Of a stretch of 23,582 nt of DNA, positions 17,128 to 23,582 are shown in pieces; the stretch's first letter is position 1; every line of letters begins with the position of its first letter. Both the position numbers and the translations under genes were made by a program. The notes beneath the pieces were generated by a model. The model was not told the origin of the DNA and did not search any database. It saw only the letters and a program-made list of their open reading frames with translations. The DNA comes from a virus. The DNA lies in the IMG/VR virus record IMGVR_UViG_3300029787_000340, positions 1-23,582 of that record; one strand, given 5' to 3'.

Positions 17128-18159
17128 TTAAATCTCCTTTAATAATTGATTTGCGTATTGCTCAGGACTAATTCCAAGTTGTCGTGCTAAACGAACTTGG
17201 GTCTGAGTCAAACGTATTTGCGAGGGTTTTTTATTTCCGCTATCCCTAGTGGCGGATGCAACAACTGTTGAAGGTTGTCGTTTTGGTGCTTCTGTTTCAT
17301 GGACTACTTCTGCAGTCTCTTCTACTTGAACACCAAAGAAACTTGGATATTCATTACGCATATGTTTATCTACTTCTGCATAATATTTTTGTGCATCATT
17401 TTCAGGAAGTATTCCCTGATTACGAAGTCTTTGATCAATGGTTAAAGCATATGAACTCATTTCTTGATGTTCAGGTACTGTGCTCATAAACCAAGGATTT
17501 TTGCTTGACCATGCTTTCATGTCAGGGTCTAGCTCTTGTGTTTGTTGTACTGGTTGTTCTGCAGGTAATTTTTTTGTTATTTCTGCTTGAACACTTTCTG
17601 CCATATTCATTGACTGTTGTTCTGCAAGAGTAGCTTTAGCTATCATCTCTTGTGCTTTAGTCATGCCATCAGCATCGCCTTCATCATAGGCTTTCTTAAA
17701 TTCTGCTTGAGCATTTTGTTTTGCCCATAAAGCATTGTTATGTGCTTGTTTGTTTAAGACTTCTCCGCCTTGATCAACCATAGCTTGTAGTCTTTGGTTT
17801 TCAGACATCATTGTTTGAAGTCTTTGAACAGCTTCTTTTGATTCTCTTGTTGCTGCTTCTTTAGCTCTGCGTTCTTCGTGATATTCGTATTTAATTTTAG
17901 CTATACGATCTGCAGCTCTTTTGCTGTAATCAGCTATTTCTTTATCTACAACATCATCATCAACTTCAACTGGTGTATCTTCTGCTCTAGGTTTTTTACC
18001 TTGATCTTCTACAGGAGTGTCATCAACAATAGTAACTTCTAGATCATCTGGTATTGTGCGATCTATTTCAGTTTGTTTGCCAAAGAATTGATCTTCTTTT
18101 GTTTGAACTACTGGTTCATCAAAGTTAGGTTCTTCATTAATTATTTCTGTTTTACTCAT
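17128..18159 (-). CDS. Probable capsid scaffolding protein
   Basis: This 343-aa protein is very rich in E, Q, K, D and A. It has an acidic N-terminus (PDDLEVTIVDDTPVEDQGK), a long coiled coil at about residues 80-205 (DYSKRAADRIAKIKYEYHEE, RLQTMMSENQRLQAMVDQGG), a folded segment (DPDMKAWSSKNPWFMSTVPE and QKYYAEVDKHMRNEYPSFF), a disordered linker, and a basic C-terminal helix (RLTQTQVRLARQLGISPEQY). Scaffolds typically bind the capsid protein through such a C-terminal helix. Position between portal and capsid genes supports this. The start overlaps the co-chaperonin stop by ATGA. Confidence 0.82.
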   Translation of the reverse strand: MSKTEIINEEPNFDEPVVQTKEDQFFGKQTEIDRTIPDDLEVTIVDDTPVEDQGKKPRAEDTPVEVDDDVVDKEIADYSKRAADRIAKIKYEYHEERRAKEAATRESKEAVQRLQTMMSENQRLQAMVDQGGEVLNKQAHNNALWAKQNAQAEFKKAYDEGDADGMTKAQEMIAKATLAEQQSMNMAESVQAEITKKLPAEQPVQQTQELDPDMKAWSSKNPWFMSTVPEHQEMSSYALTIDQRLRNQGILPENDAQKYYAEVDKHMRNEYPSFFGVQVEETAEVVHETEAPKRQPSTVVASATRDSGNKKPSQIRLTQTQVRLARQLGISPEQYANQLLKEI

Positions 18160-18560
18160 GCTCTTACTACTCCTGTTGGATCATCGACCACTGCTTCTAC
18201 AGTGTCATCATTAATTAAACGAAATTCTTGTCCATACATTTTCATGCGAGTTCCTGAGTAAGCTCTAAAAACAACCCAATCACCTTCTTTACACCAAGGT
18301 CCACTTGGAAACCTTTTGCTGTCGTTGTAACATTCAGTACCTAGTTTTAAAACATATCCACAAATATTACTTACTTCTTCATCTCTAAGAGTTGTAGTTG
18401 CTTTAATAATACCGCCATCAGTTTTTTCGTCTACTCTAGGCATAGCTATAAGAATCTTCCACCCTTTTGGTTCAGGTAGTTGACTTTTTATTTCTTCTTC
18501 TACGATAGGAGTTTCAACGCTTTCTGGTTCTGGAATGTTGACTTGTTCTTTTTTACTCAT
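18156..18560 (-). CDS. GroES-like co-chaperonin (viral Cpn10)
   Basis: This 134-aa protein has a non-conserved acidic N-terminal extension (residues 1-30) and then a Cpn10 domain: GWKILIAMPRVDEKTDGGII (33-52), where TDGGII..TTTLRDEE corresponds to the GroES mobile loop that docks on GroEL; ICGYVLKLG (66-74); WCKEGDWVVFRAYSGTRMKM (89-108); and FRLINDDTVEAVVDDP (113-128). The IVL-type tripeptide of GroES reads IIK here. The family caps the chaperonin chamber; T4 gp31 does this for its capsid protein. Its place between portal and scaffold suggests that it adapts the host GroEL for folding the capsid protein (inference). No clear Shine-Dalgarno; a small hairpin lies just upstream. Confidence 0.88.
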   Translation of the reverse strand: MSKKEQVNIPEPESVETPIVEEEIKSQLPEPKGWKILIAMPRVDEKTDGGIIKATTTLRDEEVSNICGYVLKLGTECYNDSKRFPSGPWCKEGDWVVFRAYSGTRMKMYGQEFRLINDDTVEAVVDDPTGVVRA

Positions 18561-21279: not shown

Positions 21280-21465
21280 CTAATGTAATGTTTTATCATT
21301 TAACTCTTCATTTGTATTATCTTGCAGTATTTCTGTAAGTTCACCACATACTGTTAAATTTTGCTCTTTTGCTATGATATCAGCAGAATCAAATGAATCA
21401 GCATGAATGTTTGGTCCTGCATATTCATTACCATTATGTATAAAAGAAGTTATATAAATTTTCAT
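21280..21465 (-). CDS. Small protein between terminase and portal, unknown
   Basis: This 61-aa acidic protein begins MKIYITSFIHNGNEYAGPNI and continues HADSFDSADIIAKEQNLTVC, GELTEILQD. The GP.I.A.S...A..IA..Q.L...GEL pattern is seen in small ORFs next to terminase genes of other phages and may form a beta-alpha-beta unit. Role unknown. The ATG overlaps the terminase stop as TAATG, so it is translated after terL by coupling. Confidence 0.7.
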   Translation of the reverse strand: MKIYITSFIHNGNEYAGPNIHADSFDSADIIAKEQNLTVCGELTEILQDNTNEELNDKTLH

Positions 21466-22961
21466 TAATAATAATTTGCGGTACGATTATGTTCCAAAGG
21501 CTCATCTTCTTCGTCTGAGTATAATGGAATAAAACCACCTTGTCTGAATCTTAACAGAGCTTGCGTAGTGCTATCAACTAAATCGTCATGTTCCATGTTA
21601 GGAAATCCAGCAAACTCTTCAACGACTTCTTCTGCCCATCTAGTTGATGGAGCATAAACAACACCTGAAGCAAACAAATCAGAGACTGCATTGACTCTTG
21701 ATATCTTATCGTTACCTCGGCTAGGAGTGTATTCTTGTACAGGTATACCCATAGCTCGTAATTCAAATATTAAGGGCATACCAGCAGCCTTAGCCTCTAC
21801 AATGAAGGCATCTGGCTTGTATGCGTTGTATTTCTCAAACGCCATCTTCTTGAGATCAGGAAACTCTAATCGTTCTTTGTATGCATCTAGCATGATAACA
21901 AAGGGGGAAATAAGTCCATCGTCATCTTCTTTGTAGAAAACTCCCCATGTAGTACACGCAGAATAGTCAGCTCTTTGATTCTTCATAAAAGCTGTATCCC
22001 ATGATTGAATAACAAATTCACACTGAGGAGGCTCTCTGCCTTCCCACACTTGCCACCATTCACGCTTAACTAAAGCTCCCTCCTCAGAGGTTGGGTCTTG
22101 TTGATATTGAGCCATCCACTTGCTGTTAGGTAGCTCGGCTTTCAAAGCCTCTAATTCTTCTAACTTCCAGAACTCTGCCCACAAAGGGTTTCCAGAAGGC
22201 ATAATGGCAGGAAGTTCTATGACTTCCCACTGGTCAGCACCGCCACGCTTTACACTAGCATCGACTACTTGACCTGTTAAATCTTTATTGTGCCATCTAG
22301 TCATGACCACAACGATAGAACCATTCGGTTGTAAACGCTGTCTTGGACCAGATGTGTACCATTCATAGGTACGATTGAATACATTGATGTCTGCAGAAGC
22401 TCCCTCTTGCTCAGAATGGGGATCGTCAATAATAAGTAGATCAGCACCTTTACCAGTAACCGCACCGCCTACACCAATCGCAAAGTAGTCTCCACCCTGA
22501 TTGGTGTTCCACCTACCTGCTGCTTTTGAATCTGACTGTAAGCTCACATTAGGAAATACAGCTTTGTAATCCGCACTATTAACTAAGTTTCTAACCTTTC
22601 TACCAAAGCCAACCGCTAGTTCAGCAGTATGGGCAGTCTGGATAATCTTCTTATCTGGGTATTTACCTAAGAACCACGCAGGAAGCAGGTACGAAGCGAA
22701 CTCACTCTTGGTATGTCGAGGTGGCATATTGATAATTAAACGCTTCAGATCGCCTCTAGCGACTCTCTCGAAGGCATCCGCCATAATCTCATGGTGTCTA
22801 CCATGGATAAAGGCTGACCACATCTCCCCAACAAAGGTCATGAAGTCCTCATGGCACTTTTCTCTACCTTTGGCTTTTTCTAGTTCTTCTAACAGGGAAA
22901 GAAGTTCCTGCTTCTGATCAGAGGATAGGTTCTTTACTTTACTTAGTACACTTTTATCCAT
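21465..22961 (-). CDS. terL: Terminase large subunit
   Basis: This 498-aa ATPase-nuclease drives DNA into the prohead and cuts it. The ATPase domain has an atypical Walker A, MPPRHTKSE (79-87), Walker B LLIIDDP (175-181, with Asp179/Asp180), and VVVMTRWH (217-224) at the coupling motif. The RNase H-like nuclease has IQSWDTAF (318-325, Asp322), FIVEAKAAG (386-394, Glu389) and HDDLVDS (458-464). Length is usual for the family. The ATG at 22961 has no clear Shine-Dalgarno (AGATAGTAAGT precedes it), and an unusual repeat cluster lies just upstream. A TerS-like gene ends 387 nt upstream. Confidence 0.95.
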   Translation of the reverse strand: MDKSVLSKVKNLSSDQKQELLSLLEELEKAKGREKCHEDFMTFVGEMWSAFIHGRHHEIMADAFERVARGDLKRLIINMPPRHTKSEFASYLLPAWFLGKYPDKKIIQTAHTAELAVGFGRKVRNLVNSADYKAVFPNVSLQSDSKAAGRWNTNQGGDYFAIGVGGAVTGKGADLLIIDDPHSEQEGASADINVFNRTYEWYTSGPRQRLQPNGSIVVVMTRWHNKDLTGQVVDASVKRGGADQWEVIELPAIMPSGNPLWAEFWKLEELEALKAELPNSKWMAQYQQDPTSEEGALVKREWWQVWEGREPPQCEFVIQSWDTAFMKNQRADYSACTTWGVFYKEDDDGLISPFVIMLDAYKERLEFPDLKKMAFEKYNAYKPDAFIVEAKAAGMPLIFELRAMGIPVQEYTPSRGNDKISRVNAVSDLFASGVVYAPSTRWAEEVVEEFAGFPNMEHDDLVDSTTQALLRFRQGGFIPLYSDEEDEPLEHNRTANYY

Positions 22962-22978
22962 ACTTACTATCTAGTATA

Positions 22979-23065
22979 TACCTAATAGGTAGTGATTCTT
23001 AAATAAAAAAACTTAATAGGTACATATAGGTAGGCACTCATTAGGTATTCACTGGATACTAGGTA
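22979..23065. repeat. Cluster of TAGGTA hexamers upstream of terL
   Basis: TAGGTA occurs five times in the same orientation, at 22986, 23017, 23027, 23042 and 23060 (start positions). One inverted copy, TACCTA at 22979, forms with the first the near-palindrome TACCTAATAGGTA. A further TACCTA is at 23163. Spacings (31, 10, 15 and 18 nt) are irregular, as for protein-binding sites rather than a tandem array. Candidate roles are terminase recognition or an operator for terL. Confidence 0.7.
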
Positions 23066-23078
23066 TATGTATCTACAG

Positions 23079-23084
23079 ATTATA
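23079..23084 (-). promoter_or_regulatory. Candidate -10 element for terL
   Basis: TATAAT occurs on the minus strand 118 nt before the terL start, preceded by GCAATATTG. No good -35 (TTGACA-like) box lies at 16-18 nt; TTGATT is found 24 nt upstream, too far. If used, the transcript would start near 23072 and carry the TAGGTA cluster in its leader. In AT-rich DNA this could be chance. Confidence 0.3.
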
Positions 23085-23348
23085 CAATATTGCATGGCTT
23101 CACATAAAAATCAACCCTTAATTTTGAAAATATAGTATGGGGGGGGTGCAAAAAACAGTTTTTACCTAGAAAAAAGGGGTATATGGCAAAGAAAGATAGC
23201 AAAATGCAATATATAATAGGGGGGGTATGTGAAATTAGGTCATATTATGAGTAAAACACTATGTATATATGATAGCAGGTAGCCTGTTGTATATTTGGGG
23301 GGTGGGGTGTCTCTTTATACTGTGGATTTCCCTCTATTAAGGTGGGGT

Positions 23349-23582
23349 CTACTCTGCTGATTCTCTGATCAATGCTTCTATCTTCTCCTCTATCTCACTC
23401 TCTATGTCATCACTGGTTCTGCTCTCCTTGATCTCTAGAGTGTCACTGAATAGGTTCACTGTCTTACCTAACAATTCCAATGCTCTAACTCTCGTGCTGT
23501 CACTGTCCGCTTCCTTAGACTCTCTCATAAGCTGTTCAAGAACATAGCTTCTCGTTCGAGTAGTGGAAGCTACTGCATTGGT
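23349..23582 (-). CDS. terS: Probable terminase small subunit, C-terminal part (5' end beyond window)
   Basis: The frame is open from the window edge to the TAG at 23349-23351, giving 77 residues of the C-terminus. It reads TNAVASTTRTRSYVLEQLMR, then ADSDSTRVRALELLGKTVNL, FSDTLEIKESRTSDD, and ends in an acidic helix (EEKIEALIRESAE). The RVRALELLGK..NLF.D..E pattern is characteristic of small terminase subunits of the P22/SPP1-like helix-turn-helix type, which recognise the packaging site and hand DNA to TerL. The N-terminal DNA-binding domain lies outside the window, so the assignment rests on this segment and on position before terL. Confidence 0.75.
   Translation of the reverse strand, partial: TNAVASTTRTRSYVLEQLMRESKEADSDSTRVRALELLGKTVNLFSDTLEIKESRTSDDIESEIEEKIEALIRESAE

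Follow-up and report, generated by a model that had tools for sequence, protein, structure and literature searches.

The TAGGTA hexamers packed upstream of the large terminase gene terL in this viral DNA probably constitute an operator array, shared with the leader of the primase-helicase gene and read by a trans-acting regulator, most likely a phage-encoded Arc-type ribbon-helix-helix (RHH) protein. The array is conserved among relatives, the terL and primase-helicase arrays have a motif and a module in common, and the sites are restricted to these two leaders.

The stretch analysed, referred to here as the window, comprises 23,582 nucleotides. On its plus strand, TAGGTA starts at positions 22986, 23017, 23027, 23042 and 23060 and an inverted copy (TACCTA) at 22979, with TACCTAATAGGTA occupying 22979-22991. 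Because terL is a minus-strand gene with its ATG at 22961, the cluster lies 18-104 nt away on the upstream side. The sequence-only reading had reported five same-strand copies and one inverted copy in exactly this interval, and the positions and counts proved correct. It had also remarked on the poor ribosome binding site of terL; no Shine-Dalgarno element is visible ahead of the ATG, where the sequence reads CTAGATAGTAAGTATG. The features around the late-operon leader are the following:

22979-23065, minus strand: first array, with five TACCTA and one TAGGTA in the direction of terL, in the late-operon leader; read from the sequence and conserved in relatives.
22961-22966, minus strand: extra copy of the TACYTA type (TACTTA on the plus strand), overlapping the terL start codon; read from the sequence.
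22940-22945, minus strand: extra copy of the TACYTA type (TACTTA on the plus strand), just within the terL reading frame; read from the sequence.
21465-22961, minus strand: terL, large terminase subunit, the first gene downstream of the array.
23349-23582, minus strand: terS (small terminase subunit), 3' part only, as the gene runs past the end of the window.
22973-23002, minus strand: putative promoter-like TTAAGA-18-TATACT with array sites in its spacer, a pattern no more frequent than in shuffled sequence.
23079-23114, minus strand: promoter-like block TTGATTTTTATGTGAAG...TATAAT, near-invariant and immediately upstream of the array; the best match in relatives is always here.

Clustering of this density exceeds chance, as had been proposed. 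Six copies fall in 87 bp; among 2000 dinucleotide-shuffled versions of the window the maximum was four, reached once, and among 20,000 shuffles of the intergenic region it was four, reached nine times. TAGGTA also forms the densest 87-bp cluster among all hexamers in the window, and when TACTTA/TAAGTA are added the count rises to eight copies in 126 bp against a shuffle maximum of five (500 shuffles). Over the whole window TAGGTA occurs 26 times versus 15.4 expected, a mild excess only, and the high density is confined to the local cluster.

We compared 80 loci of TerL relatives. The cluster is kept among them, at an identical position in the nearest ones; in distant relatives TACCTA and TACTTA interchange and the spacing drifts too, which is the conservation with drifting spacing for which the sequence-only reading had suggested looking. 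Of the related viral contigs (L009-L088), about half end 0-1.1 kb upstream of terL. Among 37 non-redundant terL-upstream regions, TACTTA/TAAGTA (18.5-fold) and TACCTA/TAGGTA (17.6-fold) were among the most enriched hexamers. At the sequence level, TAGGTA is a variant of the wider motif TACYTA, which occurs in both orientations and whose flanks extend it to AGTATnTACYTAnTARgT. Inverted pairs at a step of 7 and everted pairs at a step of 4 are the commonest short-range arrangements, and the spacing of sites is irregular overall (for example steps of 7, 4, 8, 31 and 18). Some relatives carry an ORF of about 65 codons between array and terL and one relative carries several genes there; despite these insertions the array continues to head the late operon. 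The inserted ORF of about 65 aa has a hydrophobic stretch (L018-L022, L028, L032, L044 and others).

No arrays were found in the cultivated pelagiphage relatives, nor in the 50-kb stretches searched of HTVC023P, HTVC027P, 023Pt_psg01 and DSL-LC04, and two TerL relatives located in metagenome-assembled genomes both lack a TACYTA array in the genome contigs searched. A search of Rfam returned no match above chance. A literature search found no paper describing the TACYTA motif, in agreement with the earlier remark that no described element is known to have this hexamer. As a separate observation, the window encodes a GroES-like co-chaperonin (Pfam Cpn10) at 18159-18560, and cultivated pelagiphage relatives encode one too.

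A weight matrix trained on the terL arrays only was then used to scan the longer relatives. In nearly all of them one further array per genome was detected, between an ORF of about 90 codons and the primase-helicase start codon; its distance upstream of terL is about 9.6-11.5 kb, in some cases counted across contig ends. The exception is G005, a 45-kb contig on which no primase array was found and which may not reach the primase-helicase gene. Searches with the primase and with the RHH protein extended the finding: at least two sites were present at 68 of 73 primase loci, these loci having been found via the RHH protein together with a primase match. Across 12 contigs (about 600 kb), strong sites numbered 88 in the two leaders versus 7 elsewhere, the 88 being made up of 82 scored by script and six hits of G021 counted as its primase array. 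Both arrays contain a common module of about 50 bp, TACTTACTAAGTTTTT..TTTAA.AAGTATCTACT..TARGTATATAC. As for a shared operator, the motif occurs in two leaders and is scarce outside them, and its position is kept while sequence and spacing drift. The window, a 23.6-kb fragment, contains the first array only and ends before the second array and the RHH gene. Its closest long relative, G001 (TerL 99% identical), carries both arrays, and from its relatives the present phage would be expected to possess the second array and the RHH gene as well. The ORF of about 90 aa preceding the primase array was considered as the regulator and set aside, its model being all-helical with no informative fold or family match.

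Comparison of early genes across relatives brought out a small conserved DNA-binding candidate of 75-117 aa with a near-invariant N-terminal domain; its gene lies about 2 kb from the primase array. Every array-bearing genome whose contig extends over this locus encodes the protein, cut short by the contig end in the case of G004, and no copy was detected in HTVC023P, HTVC027P, 023Pt_psg01 or DSL-LC04. The co-occurrence with the arrays is not specific because other early genes have the same distribution. Within the domain, R7, C8 and RSLN are nearly invariant. The structural model has a pLDDT of about 95 and helices at residues 10-22 and 27-42, with the strand unassigned in the monomer model. 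Its top fold matches in the PDB are Arc (1baz, 1bdv, 1par) and AmrZ, several of them DNA complexes, at Foldseek E values of only about 0.05-0.2. Matches to PHROG Arc-like repressors are weak (E = 6.6e-4 and 2.4e-3), the Pfam Arc match (0.04) is below the cut-off, and cultivated phages gave no match to the protein. The predicted fold is nevertheless that of an Arc-type RHH protein, and we consider this protein the most likely candidate to read both arrays, its binding being putative. A 63-aa RHH-like ORF of G001 was rejected as reader since it is not conserved.

Two further observations count against this reading. The spacing between sites is irregular, and in G018 and G019 (L149 and L150), whose terL side lies off the contigs, drift has turned the primase array into TAGATACTA repeats, yet the RHH strand is unchanged. 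We dropped this motif switch as a test of specificity: it does not discriminate, because the other arrays contain AGTATCTA as a conserved sub-element and the strand stays the same. A search of viral contigs for the TAGATACTA-pair pattern returned mostly unrelated matches; one contig, L244, has such an array at the late-operon start after terS.

Arc of phage P22 is a phage regulator whose helix carries the signature RS(L/V)N, and it acts on a single operator bound by two dimers. The candidate reader resembles it in predicted fold and has RSLN at the corresponding signature, whereas here many half-sites of another sequence are spread over two operon leaders. A second relevant system is Omega of pSM19035, an RHH ParB protein that reads arrays of WATCACW heptads in direct and inverted orientation overlapping promoters (PMC9499535). 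Short-site arrays in both orientations and a small RHH protein, here a candidate, as reader are common to both systems; in contrast to Omega, the motif is TACYTA, the sites are irregularly spaced rather than contiguous heptads, and a scan of conserved early proteins turned up no recognisable ParA partner. RptR, a helix-turn-helix-like repressor, reads TAGCTA repeats in a modular manner and is reported not to bind TAGGTA (PMC12255303). It is similar in having repeated 6-bp sites within a promoter, overlapping the -10 element, but its site and its protein class are different. AmrZ, among the best fold matches, is a chromosomal RHH regulator of Pseudomonas that acts as both repressor and activator (PMC3325190), and its site and function differ from those considered here.

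Four alternatives bear on what the arrays do and what reads them. The first, that the sites are recognised by a transcription factor of the host and not by a protein of the phage, draws on the cultivated relative HTVC027P, which has no RNA polymerase of its own and relies on that of the host (PMC12753301); host factors could be recruited. We regard it as rather unlikely, given that only two phage leaders carry the arrays and that the cultivated pelagiphage relatives showed none. It is likewise unlikely that the arrays serve a replication or partition protein as replication-origin iterons or centromere-like sites, in the manner of RHH ParB/Omega arrays. One array does adjoin the primase-helicase gene and plasmid RHH proteins bind such arrays (PMC9499535), but both arrays adjoin operon start codons and the proteins scanned include no recognised partner of the ParA type. 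Moreover, the cumulative GC-skew extremes in most relatives fall near terS-terL and about 17 kb away, not at the primase array, a pattern also compatible with gene orientation.

The third alternative is that TerS recognises the array as a pac/cos site to initiate packaging, possibly with autoregulation of terminase expression as well. The sequence-only reading had offered an operator and a pac/cos site, with TerS as reader, side by side; the operator gained from an array that is conserved, drifting and not dense elsewhere, while the packaging site lost to the second array and to single-copy blocks in the same gap, and TerS to the RHH protein as the likelier reader. The array does lie between terS and terL, like some pac sites, and many related contigs stop within 1.1 kb upstream of terL. 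These ends, however, scatter between -7 and -1120 and do not share a single point, several fall at C-runs and several contigs run through, and we rejected the pile-up as a physical end. The array is also not unique, a second array of the same motif lying about 10 kb off before the primase-helicase gene. The same gap holds two further, single-copy blocks that are better conserved than the array:

23195-23213, minus strand: near-invariant block TATATTGCATTTTGCTAGC, with one mismatch in the window; found here in relatives, with weak matches of 3-4 mismatches elsewhere.
23257-23271, minus strand: near-invariant block CATATATACATAGTG, single-copy in relatives.

Both blocks occupy the terS-terL gap of most relatives and match more weakly elsewhere. 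They are possible packaging or control sites, and better pac/cos candidates than the duplicated array. The identity of TerS is out of step with the motif as well: TerS of G019 is 80% identical to that of G007 though the primase array of G019 has drifted, and G015, with a TerS 54% identical, has the same motif. Given a second array at a distance from the terminase genes, and near-invariant blocks that are single-copy, a role as pac/cos site is quite improbable. The RHH protein is a likelier reader than TerS.

Least probable of all is that the repeats work at the RNA level, by folding in the leader or by antitermination: opposite-orientation hexamers can pair and single sequences fold with z of about -2.0 (sense) and -1.5 (antisense), but RNAalifold detected no consensus structure in the array alignment (a test of low power, shuffles also giving zero) and the orientation bias relative to the downstream gene is reversed between the arrays, with 114 TACYTA to 59 TARGTA in one and 34 to 77 in the other. 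The opposite bias, the lack of a consensus RNA fold and the mild z on both strands favour recognition on double-stranded DNA, which is probably how the sites are read.

The operator array would then work as follows. TACYTA half-sites in both orientations, forming inverted pairs (TACYTAnTARGTA) and everted pairs (TARGTAnnTACYTA), would cover the leader, beginning just downstream of the conserved promoter-like block and reaching the start codon of terL. A regulator acting in trans would read them on double-stranded DNA and would read the sister array before the primase-helicase gene too, with RHH dimers binding adjacent half-sites cooperatively. Repression appears the most likely outcome, promoter and start codon being blocked until the level or activity of the regulator changes; activation is a possible alternative mode, and the direction of control is our inference. 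Because one regulator would read both leaders, replication and the late genes for packaging and morphogenesis would be controlled together. We tentatively propose, at somewhat less than even confidence, a two-site regulon in which the RHH protein coats the TACYTA arrays over the primase-helicase and late leaders and so coordinates replication with packaging.

For the interpretation of phage genomes, a caution follows: repeats between terS and terL should not be called packaging sites from position alone. Such phages abound in marine metagenomes, and the lack of an RNA polymerase of its own in HTVC027P raises the question of how they time replication and late genes. The proposed regulon would belong to a widespread uncultivated marine phage clade and would represent a mechanism so far undescribed in these phages; with its compact pair of arrays and a named candidate reader, it makes the question of timing directly testable.
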